A stretch of DNA of 64,000 bases from the NCBI GenBank assembly GCA_016872495.1, contig VGZT01000008.1:1-64000 (forward strand). Direction: 5' to 3'. The translations under genes were made by a program, and so were the position numbers. This document shows positions 14,544-29,847 of the stretch, one piece after another (within the stretch, counting starts at the first letter, position 1; each line of letters starts with the position of its first letter). The DNA comes from SAR202 cluster bacterium (GTDB taxonomy: Bacteria > Chloroflexota > Dehalococcoidia > Lucifugimonadales > Lucifugimonadaceae). A model generated the notes under the pieces. That model was not told the origin of the DNA and did not search any database. It saw only the letters and a program-made list of their open reading frames with translations.

Positions 14544-15728
14544 ATGGGGCTGCGCATCCTGGTCACGGTTCTTGCATTAATGGCCATGGGGCTGGTCGTC
14601 TCTTGCGGCGGCGAAGTCCCTCCGACGGCGACTCCGGCCCCTGCGGCGTCCCAGCCGACCACCGTCCCGCCCACCAGTATTCCGCCCACGTCCACCCCGG
14701 CGCCGTCCCCGACGGCCCGGCCGGTGGCCACCGCCACGCTGGCCCCAGCGCCCACCGCCACCGCCACGCCGGCCCCAGCGCCGACCGCCACCGCCACGCC
14801 GGCCCCACCGCCCACCGCCACCGCCACCTCGGCCCCGGCGCCGCCCGCCACCGCCACGCCGGCCCCAGCGCCGACCGCCACCGCCACGCCGGCCCCAGTG
14901 CCGACCGCCACCGCCACGCCGGCCCCGGCGCCGACGGCCACCGCCACGCCGGCCCCAGCGCCGACGGCCACCGCCAGGCCGGCCCCAGCGCCGACCGCTA
15001 CCCCGGCACAGCCATCGCCGACGCCCGCGACCACACCCGGAGGACCAACCAGCACACCTGCGTCGCCGACGGCCACGCCGACTGCGCCGGTGCAGAGCGC
15101 TCCCACCGCCACACCGACCCTGCCAACGGCCACCCCGGCAGCACCGGGATCACAGGGCGTCGAGAAGACGGTGACGCTCACCGCGTCCAGGGACGCGCCG
15201 CTGTTCGTCGGATCTCCTGATAGCAACCACACCGGCGACCCCAATCTGTTCGTGGGTCGCACGCGCATGGGCGATGTGCGGCGGGCCATGGTGGCGTTCG
15301 ACATCTCCGGCGCCATCCCGGCCGGATCGAAGATCAAGTCGGTCAAGCTACGCATGTCGGTCGACAAGACCCATCCAGGCGGTCAACCTGTCGGTCTGCA
15401 TCGGATCACCGCCGAGTGGGCGGAGTCGGCCTCGTGGAACAACCGCCAGCCGGGCGTGAAATGGGCCAAGGGGGGCGGCGACTTCGCGGCAACCGCCAGC
15501 GCCACGACCAACGTTTCTGGCCAGCTGCAAGGACTGTTCCCACAGGTCTGGGACTCGGCCGGGCTCAGCGCGGACGTCCAGGGCTGGCTGGATGCACCGG
15601 CCACGAATGCGGGCTGGGTCCTGATCGGGGCCGAAGGGCTTGATCAGTCGGTCAAGCGCTTCGCCAGCAGGGAAGCCAGCGACGTCAACTCACGCCCCAC
15701 GCTCATCGTCACCTTCACCGCGCCGTGA
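14544..15728 (+). CDS. Lipoprotein with Pro/Thr/Ala repeat linker and DNRLRE (CBM96-like) domain
   Basis: A 394-aa protein. Signal peptide with lipobox VVSC near residue 21; about 180 residues of Pro/Ala/Thr linker built on a ten-residue repeat; then a DNRLRE-type beta-sandwich (about 210-394), recognised from SRDAPLFVGSPDSNHTGDPNLFVGR-like strands, RRAMVAFDISG, the hydrophobic SVKLRMSV and the closing SRPTLIVTF. DNRLRE domains are found on secreted glycan-binding and adhesive proteins. GAAGG precedes the ATG. The architecture parallels the lipoprotein at 1.7-3.3 kb: anchor, stiff linker, binding domain. Confidence 0.82.
   Translation: MGLRILVTVLALMAMGLVVSCGGEVPPTATPAPAASQPTTVPPTSIPPTSTPAPSPTARPVATATLAPAPTATATPAPAPTATATPAPPPTATATSAPAPPATATPAPAPTATATPAPVPTATATPAPAPTATATPAPAPTATARPAPAPTATPAQPSPTPATTPGGPTSTPASPTATPTAPVQSAPTATPTLPTATPAAPGSQGVEKTVTLTASRDAPLFVGSPDSNHTGDPNLFVGRTRMGDVRRAMVAFDISGAIPAGSKIKSVKLRMSVDKTHPGGQPVGLHRITAEWAESASWNNRQPGVKWAKGGGDFAATASATTNVSGQLQGLFPQVWDSAGLSADVQGWLDAPATNAGWVLIGAEGLDQSVKRFASREASDVNSRPTLIVTFTAP
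14731..15000. repeat. 30-bp tandem repeat, nine copies
   Basis: Consecutive 30-bp units from 14731 to 15000 encode the Ala-Pro-Thr linker of the DNRLRE lipoprotein. Copies differ by only a few bases (a few third-position changes plus GCG/CCG swaps), so the array looks recently expanded. Confidence 0.9.
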
Positions 15729-15815: not shown

Positions 15816-16040
15816 GTTCGTTGGACCGCCCCGCGCAGCTGTGAGAGAGCAATCGCGGCGAGCGGCAGGCAGGTGGCGGGGCCTCGTCGTTGCTGCTCGT
15901 CCGGTACCGGTACGACCTGCTGTCCGCTCGTCACGGGCCTGACGTAACAAAGTCGGCTTCTAAGCCCGTATCATCAGCGCAGCGCGCCGTCCGCGCGCGC
16001 CGGCCCCTTCCATATGGCGGCCGGGGAACCGGAGGCCCAC

Positions 16041-17096
16041 ATGCGAGCTGCGCGTTTCTACGGTGGCAAAGACATCCGGGTCGAGGAGATCCCGGTGCCT
16101 GAGCCAGGGCCCGGCGAGGTACTGGTTCGCATCCGCTCGGCAGGGATCTGTGGGAGCGACCTCCACAACTACCGGGGCAACCGGGCGTCGGTGTTCACCC
16201 CGCCCTGGGAGCAAGGCCACGAGCTGGCCGGCGAGGTCGCCGGGCTGGGCAAGGACGTCACCGGCCTCAAGATCGGCCAGCGTATCGCGATTGAAGGTGA
16301 GCACCTGGTGGGGTGCGGGGTGTGCCGCCACTGCCTGGCCGGCGACAACCATATCTGTCCGACCAGGGGGTTTGTGAACGGCCAGCGGCATGGCAGCCAT
16401 GGCTTTTCCGAATACGACGTCTGCGTGGCAAGGAACTGCCATCCATTGCCCCACAACGTCTCCTGTGACGAGGCCGTTCTGCTCGACTCCTACGCCTGCG
16501 CTGTTCACGTCCTGAACCGCGCGCCCCTGCACGTGACCGACACCCTCGCGATCATCGGCACGGGCGCGATCGGGCTCACGCTCGGCCAGGTGGCCAGGGT
16601 GTACGGCGCAAGACGGGTGATCATGATCGGGACGCGGGCGGCGCCTCTGCGGATCGCGCAGAACTGCGGCGCCGCAGATGAGGTCGTTGCCATCGAGGAC
16701 GGCGATCCGGTCGCCGCGGTAATGAAGCTGACCGACGGCCAGGGGGCGGACGCCGTGATCGAGACCGTAGGCGGCAATGCTCAGATCCTGGCGCAGGCGA
16801 TGGCGCTGGCACGCCGGGGCGGCACCGTCTCGGTGATGGGCGTGTTCACCGCCCCGCAGACCATTGATCCCTCGCTTGGCTTCAGCCGCGAGCTAACGGT
16901 CAAGTGGTCGAACAGCCTCTCGTCCTGGCACGGCATCTCCGAGTTCCGTACGGCGATCGATCTGGTCTCGAGCGGCCGCTTGCTGGCGGCGCCGATCATC
17001 ACGCATCACTTCCCGCTGGAGAAGATCGCGGAGGCGTTCGCTGCCACCGACGACAAGCGCAGTTCAGGCGCGATCAGGGTGGTCGTGCACGCCTAG
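16041..17096 (+). CDS. Zinc-dependent alcohol dehydrogenase (MDR superfamily)
   Basis: A 351-aa medium-chain dehydrogenase. Catalytic zinc ligands are Cys37 (AGICGSDLH) and His60-Glu61 (GHE); the structural zinc loop has four Cys (GCGVCRHC...HIC); the NAD(P) motif is GTGAIG near residue 180. It resembles L-threonine/sorbitol/galactitol dehydrogenase-type polyol enzymes, but the substrate is not determined. GGAGG lies six bases before ATG 16041; an upstream in-frame ATG at 16014 lacks a site. It ends just before a convergent methyltransferase gene. Confidence 0.87.
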   Translation: MRAARFYGGKDIRVEEIPVPEPGPGEVLVRIRSAGICGSDLHNYRGNRASVFTPPWEQGHELAGEVAGLGKDVTGLKIGQRIAIEGEHLVGCGVCRHCLAGDNHICPTRGFVNGQRHGSHGFSEYDVCVARNCHPLPHNVSCDEAVLLDSYACAVHVLNRAPLHVTDTLAIIGTGAIGLTLGQVARVYGARRVIMIGTRAAPLRIAQNCGAADEVVAIEDGDPVAAVMKLTDGQGADAVIETVGGNAQILAQAMALARRGGTVSVMGVFTAPQTIDPSLGFSRELTVKWSNSLSSWHGISEFRTAIDLVSSGRLLAAPIITHHFPLEKIAEAFAATDDKRSSGAIRVVVHA

Positions 17097-18043: not shown

Positions 18044-19414
18044 ATGGCTGAGCGTATCCACTCCGATGATGCAGACACGCGCGCCGGCGAAACTGAGCCG
18101 ATGCCGGTGCGTGATCCGAAAGATCGCAGTAACGACGGCAACAAGAACGACGGGCGCGGGATGCAACAGATCCGTGTACTGATCGCGGACGACGATCCCG
18201 CCTTCCGGTTGCTCGCCCGGCGGGAACTGGGTCGCGACGCGCGATTCTCCGTTCTCCAGGATGCCGCGGACGGCGCCGAAGCGGTCAACCTGGCAGCGCG
18301 TGAAAAACCGGACATAGTCCTGATGGATATCCGGATGCCGGTCATGGATGGCGTCGAGGCGTCGCGGCGCATCCTCGAAGCCAGGCCAGAAACCGCGATC
18401 ATCATCGTGTCGTCGTTCGCGGACATCGACGCAGCAACGGTTGGCGCACGCGCCAGGATCGACAAGGCCGATTTCACCCATCGCCGTGTGCTGCAGGCGA
18501 TCGACCTGGACCGTCCGGCGAGCAAGCCAGCGACGCCTCCCGCGGAGGTGCGCAAGCCCGCACGGACGGCGCGCTTGCGGGTAGTCGTAACTGGCGGCGC
18601 CGGACGCCTCGGCCAGTACGTGATCCCGGAACTGGTGCGGCAGGGGTACCAGGTCGTCAACGCCGACCGTGTCGAATCCGCCACCGCCGAGGTGTCAACG
18701 CTGCGGATCGACGTGACTGACTTCGGTGACGTGGTGGCCGCTCTGGCCGGTGCCGACGCCGTGATCCACCTCGCCGCAATTCCGAACCCAATGCAGGACC
18801 CCGGGCATCGCGTGTTCAGTACGAACATGCAGGCCGACTGGAACGTCCTGGAGGCTGCCCACATCCACGGGATTCCAAAGCTGGTAATGGCCTCTTCGGT
18901 GAACGCGGTTGGCGCGGTGTTCTCGCACGCCCTCGTGCCGCCGGAGTACTTTCCGATCGACGAGGAGCATCCGACCCGGGCCGAGGACGCCTACAGCCAG
19001 AGCAAGTGGCTGGGCGAGGAGCTCGCCAAAGGCTTTTGCCGCAGGCGCGACGTGCAGATCGCCAGCATGCGCTTCCACGGCCTGTGGGACCACTCCCAGC
19101 AGCGCGCCCATAAGGCCAATCCGCACTCCGACCCATCAGGCAGGCAGGCGATGCACTTCTGGGGCTGGCTAGATCGCTGGGACGCCGCACGCGCCTGCCG
19201 GCTGGCGATCCAGAAGGAGTGGAATGGACACCGCGCTTTCTTCCTGAACGGCGCGGATACGACGCTGACCGTTCCGACCGAAGAAGCTATCAGGACGGTT
19301 TACCCGGGCGTCCCGATCAAGAAGCCGTTGGCCGGATTTGCTGCGGCGATCGACAACAGCCACGCCGAGCGGGTGCTCGGCTGGCGACCCGAGCGCACGT
19401 GGAGAGACGCCTGA
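18044..19414 (+). CDS. Response-regulator receiver domain fused to NAD-dependent epimerase/dehydratase (SDR)
   Basis: A 456-aa two-domain protein. Residues about 43-155 are a CheY-like receiver with all key residues: the acidic pocket at Asp49-51, phosphoacceptor Asp95 (LMDIRMPVMDG), Ser123 and Lys141. A Pro-rich linker (about 156-176) leads to an extended SDR domain with Rossmann motif TGGAGRLG (183-190), HLAAIP, SSVNAVG and the catalytic Tyr317-x3-Lys321 (YSQSK), resembling uronate dehydrogenase/UDP-sugar epimerase relatives. Both halves look functional, suggesting an enzyme switched by phosphorylation. GGAAGG precedes ATG 18044. A TTG at 18575 could be a second start for the SDR alone. No histidine kinase lies beside it. 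Confidence 0.85.
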   Translation: MAERIHSDDADTRAGETEPMPVRDPKDRSNDGNKNDGRGMQQIRVLIADDDPAFRLLARRELGRDARFSVLQDAADGAEAVNLAAREKPDIVLMDIRMPVMDGVEASRRILEARPETAIIIVSSFADIDAATVGARARIDKADFTHRRVLQAIDLDRPASKPATPPAEVRKPARTARLRVVVTGGAGRLGQYVIPELVRQGYQVVNADRVESATAEVSTLRIDVTDFGDVVAALAGADAVIHLAAIPNPMQDPGHRVFSTNMQADWNVLEAAHIHGIPKLVMASSVNAVGAVFSHALVPPEYFPIDEEHPTRAEDAYSQSKWLGEELAKGFCRRRDVQIASMRFHGLWDHSQQRAHKANPHSDPSGRQAMHFWGWLDRWDAARACRLAIQKEWNGHRAFFLNGADTTLTVPTEEAIRTVYPGVPIKKPLAGFAAAIDNSHAERVLGWRPERTWRDA

Positions 19415-19483: not shown

Positions 19484-19813
19484 CTAGCGATCGTTCCGGG
19501 GCGGTCGTCCGCCACCCGTACCGCCGTCCCGCCCGCCGCCGCCCGTGCCGCCGTCGCGGCGCGGGGGCCTTGGCTGCGCTTCGCTGACCGTGATCTGGCG
19601 GCCATTGGCCATCGTGTTGTTGAGGCGCGAGATGGCCTGCGCGGCGCCCGCATCGTCACCCATCTCGACAAAGCCGAAGCCACGCGACCTGCCCGTCTCG
19701 CGATCCTGGATCACCTTCGCCGAGACGACCTGCCCGACCTTCTCGAATATGTTTCGAAGCTCGTCGTCGGTCACGCTGAACGCCAGATTCCCCACGAACA
19801 AGTTCTTACCCAA
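19484..19813 (-). CDS. RRM-type RNA-binding protein with Gly/Arg-rich tail
   Basis: A 109-aa protein with one RNA recognition motif: RNP2 (LFVGNL) at the start and RNP1 (RGFGFVEM) around residue 45, followed by a Gly/Arg/Pro-rich tail (about 80-109) like the glycine-rich Rbp proteins of cyanobacteria. Probably a single-stranded RNA-binding or chaperone protein, perhaps cold-responsive. I start at TTG 19813 because GGAG lies eight bases upstream and the RRM begins there; the frame is open to an ATG at 19873 with no site. Confidence 0.88.
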   Translation of the reverse strand: MGKNLFVGNLAFSVTDDELRNIFEKVGQVVSAKVIQDRETGRSRGFGFVEMGDDAGAAQAISRLNNTMANGRQITVSEAQPRPPRRDGGTGGGGRDGGTGGGRPPRNDR

Positions 19814-20078
19814 GGAAGGCACTCCAATCCGGACAGGACTGCGCGGGGAAGCCGGCTCGCCATCGCCCGACATCTTGCGCCAGGTCCGGGGCGTCGGGCC
19901 CCTGTTCCACTACGTTCCGCCCGAGGCGGATCCCGTGCCGCACCAGGCGGTCGCCAATCCACTCATGGTCGCCGGATTTGCGATGGTCAAGTCCGGTCGC
20001 TCCATACTGCGTGCCGGGCACCCGGACACGACGGCGTAGCATACCCCGGAACTCTGAGGGGTGCCACTCCCCGTCCGA

Positions 20079-20900
20079 TCAGCTACCGACGCGAACCCGG
20101 CCGTCGCATACCCCGCGCAGAGCCTCCAGTGCGGAGAGGATGGCCAGCTGGCTGGTCTTGGGATTCGCCTGGCTCGGCCGGTTGACGAACCGGGCGGTGA
20201 ACTCGCCGAACTCGCCCGACGCCACCAGCTCGTGTACGTTGCCCGGCGCGGCCGGGTCGGCCACCACGCGCGCGATCGTCCGGTCCGGACCCAGGCCGGC
20301 CAGGCTCACGGATGCAGCGACGTTGACGTTGGCCGGGAACTGGCGGACCGCGGCGCCTGCCGGACCCTCGTAGACCAGGACCGGCTTCTCGATCTTCTTC
20401 GACTCCCAGGCGGCGAACCCCGGCGCGCCGCGCAGCGCCTCGGGTCGCTTGGTCGAGGTCAGGATCACACGTTCGAGCCCGGCCCTTACGGCCCGCAGGG
20501 TGTCCAGGCAGCCGATGGCGCCCGACGGCACGGCGAGCGATACGTTGCGTTCCCGTGCCAGCCTCGCGAGCTCCGAAAACGTGTCGCCGATCAGGAGCGC
20601 GCCGGTGCTCATGATGAGCAGCGAGCGTCCCCGGTTCAGCGCCAGGCGGGCGCATTCGGTGGCGGCGGACTGCGAAGCCGCTTCGATCACCAGCCCGACG
20701 GACGCCTCGTCCAGCATCGCCTCCACGGAGGGGCAGACCTTCGACTGCGAGAAACGGGCTACCGTCCGGGCGCGGTCCTGGTCGCGATCATAGACGGCCC
20801 GCAACGCCGCACTGCCACCCTGCCCGTCGACGATCGCGCGTGCCAGCGCCTCCCCGATCGTCCCGCAGCCGACAAGCCCCACACCAATCGTATCTGTCAC
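20079..20900 (-). CDS. nadX: L-aspartate dehydrogenase
   Basis: A 273-aa NAD(P)-dependent dehydrogenase. N-terminal Rossmann motif GLVGCGTIG; catalytic-domain signatures VPSGAIGCLD, FPANVNVAAS and NPKTS match aspartate dehydrogenase, which oxidises aspartate to iminoaspartate for quinolinate and NAD synthesis. The usual partners nadA and nadC are not nearby. Some homologues act on other amino acids, so the exact substrate is likely but not certain. Confidence 0.85.
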   Translation of the reverse strand: MTDTIGVGLVGCGTIGEALARAIVDGQGGSAALRAVYDRDQDRARTVARFSQSKVCPSVEAMLDEASVGLVIEAASQSAATECARLALNRGRSLLIMSTGALLIGDTFSELARLARERNVSLAVPSGAIGCLDTLRAVRAGLERVILTSTKRPEALRGAPGFAAWESKKIEKPVLVYEGPAGAAVRQFPANVNVAASVSLAGLGPDRTIARVVADPAAPGNVHELVASGEFGEFTARFVNRPSQANPKTSQLAILSALEALRGVCDGRVRVGS

Positions 20901-20977
20901 TGAGATAAACTCCGGCAGTTGCGGTCGCGACGCACTTGATGGCTACACACTACTACGAGCCAGCGCCTGGAGCAGAT

Positions 20978-22033
20978 ATGGCCAAAAGCGGACTTGCCGG
21001 CAAGGCGCAGACGGTCCTGGGACCGATCGACGCCGCCCAGATCGGGATCGCGGTTACCCACGAGCATTTACTGATCGATTTCAGGGTCGTGTTCGTGCCT
21101 CCGACGAGCGAAGAGGGCAAGGCGTTATCGAAGCAGCCGATTTCGATGTCGAACCTGGGCTGGGTTCGCTACAACTGGGCGAGTAGCCTGGAGAATCTGC
21201 GCTACGAGGATGAAGCCCTGGCGGCCCGCGAGGCGGCCCATTATGCGCGAGCTGGCGGACGCACGGTAGTAGACGCTACGAGCATCGGGCTGAAACGCAA
21301 CCCTCGGGCGCTGGCCAACATCAGCAAGGCCGCCGGGATCAACGTGATCATGGGTTCCGGCTACTACGTCCAGGCGTCGCACCCCCAGGGCTTGCACGCT
21401 CGCACCGTGGAGGACATCGCGGCGGAGATCGAGCGCGACATAACCATCGGCGCCGACGGCACGGCCATCAAGAGCGGGATCATCGGCGAGATAGGCTGTT
21501 CGTGGCCCTGGACCAGGGACGAGAAGAAATCGATGCAGGCGGCAATCATCGCCCAGGCGAGGACAGGAGCGCCCCTGCTCATACACCCCGGGCGCAGTGA
21601 GACCGCTCCCATCGAGATCGTGAACTTCATCGTCAAGAACGGGGGCAACTTGCGGCGCACGATCATGGGCCACATCGAGCGCACGATCTTCACCGCCCCC
21701 GTGCTCGACGAGCTGGCGGCCACCGGCATTTACCTTGAATACGACCTGTTCGGGCACGACTCCTCCTACTATCCGTTTGCTCCCCAGACCTACATGCCCA
21801 ACGACGCGCAGCGACTCGAGCAGATCGACCGGCTGATCGCCAACGGGCACCTGGACCAAATATTGCTGGCGCATGACGTGTGCTCGCGACACCGCCTCAA
21901 GGAGTTCGGTGGCCACGGGCTCGACCACATTCCCGCCAGGGTGGCGCCATGGATGAAGGCCCGGGGGCTCTCCCAGGTGCAGGTTGACCGCATGCTGGTC
22001 GACAACCCTGCCAGGGTGCTGGCCTTCGTCTGA
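20978..22033 (+). CDS. Phosphotriesterase-family metal hydrolase
   Basis: A 351-aa amidohydrolase-superfamily barrel. Metal ligands are His-x-His (VTHEHLL), His in LLIHPGRS, His in MGHIERT and Asp in LAHDVCSR. At the bridging position usually occupied by a carboxylated Lys there is Glu (GEIGCS), as in E. coli PHP (YhfV). It may act as a lactonase or esterase rather than on phosphotriesters. GGAG five bases before ATG 20978 fixes the start; the frame extends to 20936. It diverges from nadX, with the shared promoter region in the 77-bp gap. Confidence 0.83.
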   Translation: MAKSGLAGKAQTVLGPIDAAQIGIAVTHEHLLIDFRVVFVPPTSEEGKALSKQPISMSNLGWVRYNWASSLENLRYEDEALAAREAAHYARAGGRTVVDATSIGLKRNPRALANISKAAGINVIMGSGYYVQASHPQGLHARTVEDIAAEIERDITIGADGTAIKSGIIGEIGCSWPWTRDEKKSMQAAIIAQARTGAPLLIHPGRSETAPIEIVNFIVKNGGNLRRTIMGHIERTIFTAPVLDELAATGIYLEYDLFGHDSSYYPFAPQTYMPNDAQRLEQIDRLIANGHLDQILLAHDVCSRHRLKEFGGHGLDHIPARVAPWMKARGLSQVQVDRMLVDNPARVLAFV

Positions 22034-22278: not shown

Positions 22279-23157
22279 ATGCGGGTGCGGATCCGGCTGT
22301 CTTGGCTAATGATCGCGGTCATTGCGTCCGCTGCCGGGCTCGTGGCTTGCGAAGGAGGTAGCGGCCTCCAGTCGGCGAGCCTCGGGGTCTTCCCCATCGC
22401 CTCCGACCTGAAGGTGGGCGAGAACCGCCTTCCGTTCGCCATCATCGACAAGGACGGCAGGTACCTGGTGGTCCGGCCCGCCGCGATCCGCGTCAACTAC
22501 CACCCGCAGGACAGCAGCGACCCTCGCCGGGCTACCGCATCGATCTACCGCCAGTGGCCCGGTGGGCGTGGCGTCTACGTGACCGAGGCCGTGTTCGACA
22601 AGCCGGGGATCTGGTTGATGGACGTCACCATCGATGGCTACTCCGGCACCTTCTCGGCCGGGCTCGAAGTGCGCTCCCAGCCACGGACGCCGGCGGCCGG
22701 CTCGCCCGCGCCCCGCACCCCGACGAAGGTCGCCGTGGCCGGAGAGGACCTGAGCAAGATCACCAGCGCGCCCAATCCGGACCCGGCGTTCTACTCGATC
22801 TCGCTGGCCGATGCCGTGGCTGGCGGAAAGCCGGTGGTCGTGTCCTTTTCCACGCCTCTCTACTGTGCAACCGCGACCTGCGGCCCGCAGCTGGACGAGC
22901 TGGCAAAGCTGCGTCGCCAGTTCAGGGAGCGCGCCAGCTTCATCCACGTCGAGATGTATGACAACCCCCACGAAATCCAGGGAGACCTGACGAGGGCCAG
23001 GCTCGCCGACGCGGTGAAGGTCTGGGGGCTGCCCTCAGAGCCCTGGACCTTCGTGGTCGACGGTGCGGGAGTGATCGTGGCAAAGTTCGAGGCGTTCACC
23101 AGTGCCGACGAGATCGCGCCCGCGCTCGAATCCGCGCTGGCGGGTTCCGGGAGCTAG
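22279..23157 (+). CDS. Lipoprotein with thioredoxin-like fold
   Basis: A 292-aa predicted lipoprotein: basic start, hydrophobic segment and lipobox LVAC near residue 24. Residues 30-150 form an unidentified beta-rich domain; after a Pro/Thr linker, residues about 165-292 resemble the thioredoxin fold, with a Cys pair in CATATCGPQLDEL and the cis-Pro-like segment SEPWTFVVD. The CxxxxC spacing is closer to SCO/peroxiredoxin-like proteins than to thioredoxin. It may handle copper or thiol redox at the cell surface. I start at ATG 22279 behind AAGGA; upstream ATGs lack sites. Its stop codon overlaps the stop of the convergent CoA-transferase. Confidence 0.7.
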   Translation: MRVRIRLSWLMIAVIASAAGLVACEGGSGLQSASLGVFPIASDLKVGENRLPFAIIDKDGRYLVVRPAAIRVNYHPQDSSDPRRATASIYRQWPGGRGVYVTEAVFDKPGIWLMDVTIDGYSGTFSAGLEVRSQPRTPAAGSPAPRTPTKVAVAGEDLSKITSAPNPDPAFYSISLADAVAGGKPVVVSFSTPLYCATATCGPQLDELAKLRRQFRERASFIHVEMYDNPHEIQGDLTRARLADAVKVWGLPSEPWTFVVDGAGVIVAKFEAFTSADEIAPALESALAGSGS

Positions 23158-25505
23158 CCCCCCGGACGGTAGACGCCTGCTACGCCCTTGCTCTCGAGGT
23201 CTCGGATCGCATCGTCTGCGAATCCGATCTCGCGTAGGACTTCGACCGTGTGCTCGCCGCAAGCCGGGGACCCGGAGCGGCGGCGTGCCGGCGTTCTGGA
23301 AAAGCGCACCAGCACGCCAGGCTGGCGGAGATTCGTGAAACCCGGATAGGGGTCATTGGCCAGAACCTGCAGATGAGCGGCCTGCGGGTTCTGGTAAACC
23401 CCCTCGTCGTTGTTCATGGCTACTCGCTCGGCCGGCACGCCTGCCTTGTCCAGGCGTTCGAGCCACTCGCCGACCGTACGGGTTGCGAACAGGCCAGCGA
23501 GCTCTCTCTCGGCGGCCTGCTCGGCCAGGGCTTCCCCGGCCGCCCGAACACCGGTCTGACCCTCGAACGCCGACCTCTCGCCGGGCAACCGGCAAGCGAC
23601 GAAGATGAAGCCGTCGCGGCACCGGTACCAGCGATGGGCCAGGTTAGTCCCGGAGTTGTCGGCGTTGGTCACCGCCCGCGGCTCATGACCCGCGTATCGG
23701 ACGAAGGCGTCGGATTTGAGCCAGAGACCGGTCGCGAGCAGCGATGTTTCGATCAGCTGTCCCTGACCCGTGCGGTCGCGGTGCGCGACGGCAAGCAGGA
23801 CTGCGGTCGCGCCCAGCATCGCGGTGGCGATATCGCAGATCGGCGTCTTGGGGAACACCGGGGGTCGGCCCGGACCCGCCTGGGCGAGGCCGATGCCGGT
23901 CAACGACTGGAAGAGGGGATCGAACCCGGGCTGGCGGGCGTCGGGCCCCTTGCTGCCATAAGCGGTGCTCTGAAGGTAGATGACATCCGGTCGGATCCTG
24001 CGCACGGAGTCATAGTCGAGGCCCAGCCGCTCGGCGACGCCCACCCGATTGTTGTGCACCACGACATCGGAGCGTTCGATCAGCCGGACCAGCGGTTCCC
24101 GAGATGCCGGCGACTTGAGATCCAGCGCCAGCCCACGCTTGCTCGGATTCCCGCCGAGGTACAGCATCATGATCATCCGGCAACCCTCGCCGGTCGGCGG
24201 CTCCACCTTTATCACATCGGCCCCGAGGTCGGCCAGGTAGGCTGGCCCGATCGGTCCTGCGAGGTAAGACGACAGGTCGAGCACCCTCAGACCGGCCAGC
24301 GGTCCGCGGCCAGCCACGACCGCCCGTTCGCGCTGCGCCTCGAAGAACCGGGTGGCGGATTCCCAGTCGAGTTCGTCTTGGGGTGCCTCCGGCGCCGCTC
24401 TTCGCACGCCCCCCGGCGTGGCGGACAACGCGACCGGCGGCATCGCCTGCTCCAGCGGGCCGACACGCGGATCGACGATTAATGTCGAAAGCCCGTTGGC
24501 GACCACTTGCGGGTGCGAGAAAAGCTCGTGTGTCGGCGTGGCCGGGGAGACCGGCACGTCGCCATCTCGCAGGAGCTGCAGCCAGTGTGCGCGGTCTTTC
24601 GTCCGGAACTTCTCTGCCAGCAAACGCTTGGCGGCGGCGCGCACTTCCTCGGATGGCCAGTAAAGCGGTGCGCTTTCGAAGCGGGGGTCGGTAGCGAATT
24701 CGAACAGGTCGAGGGCGATGATCATTTTGTTCCAGAAGACCGGGATCAGGGTCCCAAGGTGAAGCCAGTTGCCGTCGGCGCACTCGTAAAGGCGGTAGTT
24801 CGGCAGCGCGCCCTGCGGGTCGTTGCCGGCGCTGTCCCACGTCTGGACGCCTTCCCCCCGGACCAGCATGGGCGACCGTGCGGCGATCGCACCCTGGTAG
24901 AGGGAGGTCTCGACCAGTTGCCCGCTCCCCGATCTCCTGCGCTCGTAGATCGCAGCCAGCACGCTCTGGATGGCAAGGAGGGCGGTTCCGATCCCGGCGA
25001 TTGGCAGAGGGTTGAAGGTCGGCTCGTTGTCGGGTCCCCGCTGCTCGGTGTGGATCCCGGCCACCGCCGCCACCAGCGCTTCGTAGCCAACCCGGCCGGC
25101 CAGCGGCCCGGTCGCGCCATAGGGAGTGATGGAGCACCAGATCAGTCCCGGGTTGCGCTTGCTCGCCGCCAGGTACGCAGCCTTGCCCGCCGCAGCAAGG
25201 GACTCGACGACCACGTCGGCGCGTTCGATCAAGGCCTGGCTCGCGGCCAGCAGTTCCGTTACCGGAGCCTGCATGGCCCGCTTGTTCCGGTTCCAGACCA
25301 GGTATTCGGGGCCGGTTTCTAGCCCTATGCCAGGAGATGGGACGACCTTCACGACATCTGCGCCGTAGTCGGCCAGGAACATCGTCGCGAGGGCCCCGGG
25401 GTGGTCGTTGGTCAGGTCGACTACCCTCAGCCCCTTGAGGGGTCCGACGTTATCGCGTCCCTCAGGGGGCCTTTGCTGGCGGTTGCTTTGGGGCAACGAG
25501 GGCAC
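23154..25505 (-). CDS. Tandem (double-domain) CaiB/BaiF family III CoA-transferase
   Basis: At 783 aa it is twice the family length: two complete CaiB/BaiF modules in one chain, residues about 20-390 (LKGLRVVDLTN...ADYGADVVKV) and 405-775 (LAGLRVLDLSS...ADLGADVIKVEPP). Family III transferases usually work as interlocked dimers, so the fusion may form the dimer internally. The catalytic Asp position (normally VD-x-S) is Glu in both halves (QLVETSL, QLIETSL). It would move CoA between carboxylic acids, substrate unknown. It starts with GTG 25505, overlapping the end of the TPR lipoprotein by 44 bases on the same strand. Confidence 0.85.
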   Translation of the reverse strand: MPSLPQSNRQQRPPEGRDNVGPLKGLRVVDLTNDHPGALATMFLADYGADVVKVVPSPGIGLETGPEYLVWNRNKRAMQAPVTELLAASQALIERADVVVESLAAAGKAAYLAASKRNPGLIWCSITPYGATGPLAGRVGYEALVAAVAGIHTEQRGPDNEPTFNPLPIAGIGTALLAIQSVLAAIYERRRSGSGQLVETSLYQGAIAARSPMLVRGEGVQTWDSAGNDPQGALPNYRLYECADGNWLHLGTLIPVFWNKMIIALDLFEFATDPRFESAPLYWPSEEVRAAAKRLLAEKFRTKDRAHWLQLLRDGDVPVSPATPTHELFSHPQVVANGLSTLIVDPRVGPLEQAMPPVALSATPGGVRRAAPEAPQDELDWESATRFFEAQRERAVVAGRGPLAGLRVLDLSSYLAGPIGPAYLADLGADVIKVEPPTGEGCRMIMMLYLGGNPSKRGLALDLKSPASREPLVRLIERSDVVVHNNRVGVAERLGLDYDSVRRIRPDVIYLQSTAYGSKGPDARQPGFDPLFQSLTGIGLAQAGPGRPPVFPKTPICDIATAMLGATAVLLAVAHRDRTGQGQLIETSLLATGLWLKSDAFVRYAGHEPRAVTNADNSGTNLAHRWYRCRDGFIFVACRLPGERSAFEGQTGVRAAGEALAEQAAERELAGLFATRTVGEWLERLDKAGVPAERVAMNNDEGVYQNPQAAHLQVLANDPYPGFTNLRQPGVLVRFSRTPARRRSGSPACGEHTVEVLREIGFADDAIRDLESKGVAGVYRPGG

Positions 25506-29480: not shown

Positions 29481-29847
29481 ATGTTCGCGGTGGTGGAGAA
29501 CATCTCCGAGCGGAAGGCTGCCGAAGAAGCTACCCGCGACCGCCTCGCGCAGGTGCTCGCCCTCCGGTAAAACCGTCATGCTCTCCGCCAGGGTTTGCGA
29601 CGGAATGGTCTGCGTCGAAGTGCAGGGCCAGGGGACCGGCAAAGGTACGGCCGACATGGCCCGGGTCTTCACACCGTTCTTCAGGTCGGACGACCAGGCC
29701 ACCAGGCAAGTGCCAGGTACCGGACTCGGCCTCGCGCTCGTGCAATCGATCGTCGAACTGCACGGTGGAGAGGTGACCGTTTTCTCCGAGCCGGGATCGG
29801 GCAGCAAGTCCGGTTTCCGCATCCCGGGCGTACTCGCCGCGGCCTGA
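29481..29847 (+). pseudogene. Decayed PAS-histidine kinase
   Basis: From ATG 29481 one frame reads the end of a PAS/PAC domain and linker (MFAVVENISERKAAEEATRD) and stops at TAA near 29570. From about 29578 another frame reads the C-terminal half of a kinase ATPase domain: FTPFFRSDD, the G2 box GTGLGLALVQSIVELHGG and GSKSGFRIPG. The HisKA dimerisation/phosphorylation domain and N-box are missing. It is therefore a broken sensor kinase and cannot be the kinase of the receiver-SDR fusion. Confidence 0.7.

Follow-up and report, generated by a model that had tools for sequence, protein, structure and literature searches.

A CheY-like receiver (REC) and an SDR enzyme are encoded on one chain in the window, a stretch of 64,000 nucleotides of SAR202 cluster bacterium DNA, and both domains are maintained in three genomes, with dN/dS well below 1 for each. 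The gene (18044-19414, forward strand) forms a single open frame of 456 codons plus a stop and encodes an intact receiver together with an intact NAD-binding SDR. The chain begins with an N-terminal tail (residues 1-39, 18044-18160), followed by the receiver (Response_reg residues 45-140, 18176-18463), an interdomain linker (residues 156-178, 18509-18577) and the SDR domain (residues 179-456, about 278 aa, 18578-19411). The Pfam Response_reg profile (PF00072) matched residues 45-140 with an E value of 4.5e-20 and 72 bits against a cut-off of 30.2, and the Epimerase profile (PF01370) matched residues 180-344 with an E value of 4.2e-23 and 82 bits against a cut-off of 20.9. A sequence-only reading of this DNA had described one uninterrupted frame carrying D49-51, D95, S123 and K141 in the receiver and the SDR motifs TGGAGRLG and Y317-x3-K321; all of these were confirmed, with the D95 codon at 18326-18328, TGGAGRLG at residues 183-190 (18590-18613) and the Tyr-Lys motif at 18992-19006. 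Translation probably starts at the ATG at 18044, given that the three homologues all share this Met. The ATG at 18161, at the edge of the receiver, is a possible alternative start; the tail that it would omit is weakly conserved (dN/dS 0.2-0.4) and predicted to be disordered (pLDDT <50).

Comparison of the three genomes of the genus (the window genome, G001 and G002) revealed the same in-frame fusion in each, on independent contigs and at 73-75% identity; the junction, whose conservation in related genomes the sequence-only reading had proposed as a check, is kept in all three. The amino-acid identity among the fused homologues is 75-82% in the receiver and 80-81% in the SDR, and only 23-35% in the linker, which is predicted to be disordered, evolves fast and differs in sequence among the three species. 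Its description as Pro-rich holds only for the window species; in G001 it is Ala-rich. By the Nei-Gojobori method, dN/dS among the three homologues comes to 0.06-0.10 in the receiver, 0.11-0.12 in the SDR and, where calculable, about 0.5-0.6 or more in the linker; since dS is near or above saturation these ratios are rough, but the amino-acid identity sets the linker apart from the domains just as clearly. Both halves are thus under purifying selection, and the linker is not. The named motif residues are invariant in the three homologues with the exception of A186 of TGGAGRLG, which is Ser in the other two.

The structural model of the receiver shows a confident CheY fold (pLDDT 91, TM 0.88 to solved CheY), with the acidic pair (D49-51), the phospho-acceptor Asp (D95), the Ser/Thr (S123) and the Lys (K141) all present. 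These phosphotransfer residues are kept at seven loci in two genera, three fused and four in unfused relatives. The receiver is an unusual sub-type in which helix alpha4 is cut to a stub: several residues are missing in comparison with ordinary receivers, and in the model a stub helix of four residues stands in place of the full-length helix, which is usual in receivers although it does not strictly define them. In all seven cluster receivers several alpha4 residues are absent, and alpha4 is followed by a conserved I-x-K-x-(E/D)-F segment. The alpha4-beta5-alpha5 surface is the usual dimerisation face of receivers, and with alpha4 mostly missing from it this receiver may use a different face. 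A profile search of the contigs of the genome returned mostly ordinary receivers. Closely related receivers (about 180 bits) were found only at the cluster loci of the fused genus and of a sister genus, g3, the next best receiver in the order scoring 103, and a receiver fragment at a contig end in G032, a g3 genome, scored 144 bits. The seven cluster receivers group together in the tree (94/93). The g3 clusters also hold, upstream, a second CheY-like single-domain receiver (L132:8726-9160, L134:9084-9527, L150:7686-8114), and no counterpart of it was noticed near the window fusion.

Analysis of the SDR half indicated that G184, G187, G190, S284/S285, Y317 and K321 are invariant in 20 aligned SDR sequences, S284/S285 preceding the active-site Tyr. 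The features of a PF01370 extended-type SDR (TGxxGxxG, YxxxK, the Ser and a score over the cut-off) are all present. The best PDB profile match is the uronate dehydrogenase 6mfh; among the listed fold matches it also has the smallest rmsd (3.3 Å, TM 0.72 on target), most others lying at 7-9 Å; the matches listed from the PDB fold search with the whole chain covered the SDR half only. The score against NF041293, the model of the NAD-dependent glucose-6-phosphate dehydrogenase Azf, was 56.6 bits versus a cut-off of 400, which places the SDR outside the Azf equivalog. The SDR is a putative dehydrogenase that resembles uronate dehydrogenase and Azf more than the classic extended nucleotide-sugar enzymes and epimerases. 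The suggestion of a role in sugar or nucleotide-sugar metabolism was accordingly correct in part only: the profile and the fold comparisons both fit uronate dehydrogenase best.

Judged by its gene content, the conserved neighbourhood of the fusion looks catabolic. In the window, a gene of the zinc alcohol dehydrogenase family (16014-17096, +) lies upstream, and downstream are an aspartate-dehydrogenase-like gene (20079-20900, -) conserved next to the SDR and two further conserved cluster members, a phosphotriesterase-family hydrolase (20936-22033, +) and a family III CoA-transferase with two CaiB-type units (23154-25505, -). The order zinc alcohol dehydrogenase, receiver, SDR, aspartate-dehydrogenase-like, phosphotriesterase-family and CoA-transferase recurs, within the reach of the contigs, in the window, G001, G002 and g3, and the clusters of relatives also hold hydantoinase A/B, an amidohydrolase and a Vgb/SMP-30-like protein. 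A gene for a small RRM RNA-binding protein (19484-19873, -) adjoins the fusion and is conserved in G001 and G002. The product of the frame at 14544-15728 (+) is predicted to be secreted and contains a long region of Pro/Thr/Ala repeats, and a similar protein is encoded near the fusion in G002 (L131:4326-5306).

In two g3 genomes (G004 and G014), with the zinc alcohol dehydrogenase orthologue beside them, the receiver and the SDR are separate genes: the receiver ends in a stop and the SDR follows 55-56 nt on, in another frame of the same strand. The distance from the receiver end to the SDR start is 61-62 nt in this pair, compared with a linker of 72-78 nt (24-26 codons) in the fused species. 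Because the unfused pair adjoins in the cluster of a related genus, the fusion is best read as a stop loss between cluster neighbours, and apparently the neighbouring genes were fused in the ancestor of the genus, the spacer becoming the linker, which would be the simplest reading of the gene arrangements. The sequence-only reading had taken separate genes in relatives as a sign against the fusion; in the three genomes of the genus the homologues are fused, and separate genes occur in g3. The tree neither supported nor rejected one clade of fused and g3 receiver-adjacent SDRs (p-AU 0.20), and their orthology is based on the shared gene order.

When the fused profile was run against sampled genomes at three levels (250 for the order, 393 for the class and 400 for the phylum), SDR relatives appeared at each level but no further REC-SDR chain did, and no other fusion was found in the family sample. 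Long frames around SDR matches in three genomes (G474, G869 and G647) proved to be spurious GC-rich extensions lacking a receiver. Two genomes of a distant family of the same phylum, G812 (L267:531-2021) and G650 (L271), were rejected as further fusions: each has a receiver gene immediately upstream of an HpnA-like SDR, yet the two are unfused, in G812 standing in the same frame with one TGA and a short stretch between them. In those other genomes of the family that were examined, no receiver was seen adjoining the SDR relatives.

We propose that an NAD-dependent SDR dehydrogenase of a catabolic cluster gained a built-in receiver by fusing with the gene just upstream. D95 would receive its phosphate from a kinase whose gene lies elsewhere, or from acetyl phosphate, phosphorylation would alter the dimerisation of the receiver or its docking on the SDR, and the activity or placement of the dehydrogenase would be raised or lowered in consequence. 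Phosphorylation control of the SDR is plausible, in that a receiver-enzyme fusion kept under selection fits it. That phosphorylation of D95 modulates the attached dehydrogenase through dimerisation or docking is a tentative reading, to which we give a little short of an even chance; the flexible linker makes either route likelier than a rigid hinge. Counted against phosphorylation control are the disordered and unconserved linker, the truncated alpha4, the failure to find a cognate kinase and the receivers that lack an SDR in two further g3 genomes. A related proposal, that the alpha4-trimmed receiver directly switches the dehydrogenase, having arisen within the catabolic cluster as a regulator dedicated to the enzyme, at first separate and later fused, appears doubtful.

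Regarding the kinase, a HATPase_c search of the window genome gave ten matches, including three intact-looking histidine kinases (on C1, C16 and C19), each of which adjoins its own response regulator. The remaining matches are GyrB-like or MutL-like by sequence or are fragments, among them the window remnant at 29578-29847. No orphan intact histidine kinase was found by this search in the genome, which is 98% complete; other kinase classes may exist. The earlier observations that no partner kinase is adjacent to the fusion and that the kinase near 29.5 kb is decayed were both borne out. Decayed or fragmentary kinase and receiver genes are present at 29578-29847 of the window and on C4, C6, C20, C33, C56 and C73. 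The genome is possibly losing two-component genes, the fused receiver remaining intact.

An alternative explanation is that two independent domains share the chain, the receiver having a separate role, as a phosphate sink or as a docking partner of some other cluster protein, with the SDR unregulated, so that the fusion provides equal dosage or co-localisation only. The flexible, unconserved linker is compatible with this explanation. In addition, the receivers of G023 and G032, also g3 genomes, stand beside the aspartate-dehydrogenase-like and phosphotriesterase-family genes with the SDR absent next to them, suggesting that the job of the receiver is not tied to the SDR alone, and no receiver lies close to the SDR orthologues found elsewhere in the family. 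The retention of the fusion in all three species, with similar selection on both domains, argues against independence, and we consider it a credible but unlikely explanation. Improbable by comparison is a receiver that works unphosphorylated and serves the enzyme as a module for dimerisation, stability or docking; the truncated alpha4, the lack of an orphan kinase in the search above and the decay of several receivers and kinases of the genome would suit such a module, but the phosphotransfer residues at seven loci in two genera and the low dN/dS of the receiver in the fused genus are hard to explain by it. In the reverse arrangement, the SDR would sense NAD(H) or a metabolite and tune the phosphorylation or docking of the receiver, reporting the metabolic state to a kinase. 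The NAD motif is retained in the fused enzyme, and REC-attached domains have been discussed as sensors for archaeal proteins (PMC5847659), but the complete catalytic residues and the catabolic gene neighbourhood suggest a working enzyme and make this arrangement very improbable. A misassembly or base error joining two genes, raised in the sequence-only reading and favoured only by the separate genes of g3, can be dismissed, since three independent species assemblies carry the same in-frame fusion with different linkers.

Two-component signals mostly act on transcription, and a receiver wired into a dehydrogenase would, if its phosphorylation does control the SDR, provide fast post-translational control of catabolism. 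The fusion would then capture the step from two-gene to one-gene post-translational control, and the unfused pair of g3 can be compared with it directly. A candidate for an enzyme-dedicated regulator is the receiver sub-type that both genera carry in this cluster.

Receivers attached to metabolic enzymes form a rare class, each confined to a few genera; examples are REC with the BcsA-like glycosyltransferase MTH_548, KaiC-REC, and REC with thioredoxin reductase or pyruvate phosphate dikinase (PMC5847659). The view that receivers usually have DNA-binding or signalling outputs is broadly correct, but it passes over this class, which was already described (PMC5847659). The window protein is similar to these enzymatic-output response regulators in having REC and an enzyme on one chain in few related genera, and differs from them in that its output is an SDR/Epimerase-family dehydrogenase, that it is bacterial and that its origin is apparently traceable to a cluster neighbour. 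No description of an SDR/Epimerase-family output on a receiver was found in the papers searched. The chemotaxis methylesterase CheB likewise consists of an N-terminal receiver, a linker and a C-terminal enzyme, and the NCBIfam CheB match covers the receiver part of the window protein; the resemblance is one of architecture only, as the CheB enzyme is unrelated to the SDR, and no chemotaxis context was seen near the fusion gene. Uronate dehydrogenase (6mfh, 3rft) and Azf share the NAD motif and YxxxK with the window SDR, which in the fold alignment is about 23% identical to 6mfh; unlike the window protein, these relatives carry no receiver. The G004 and G014 pair shares the cluster, the receiver sub-type and the SDR family with the fusion and differs from it in being two genes, with a stop and the 55-56 nt spacer between them.
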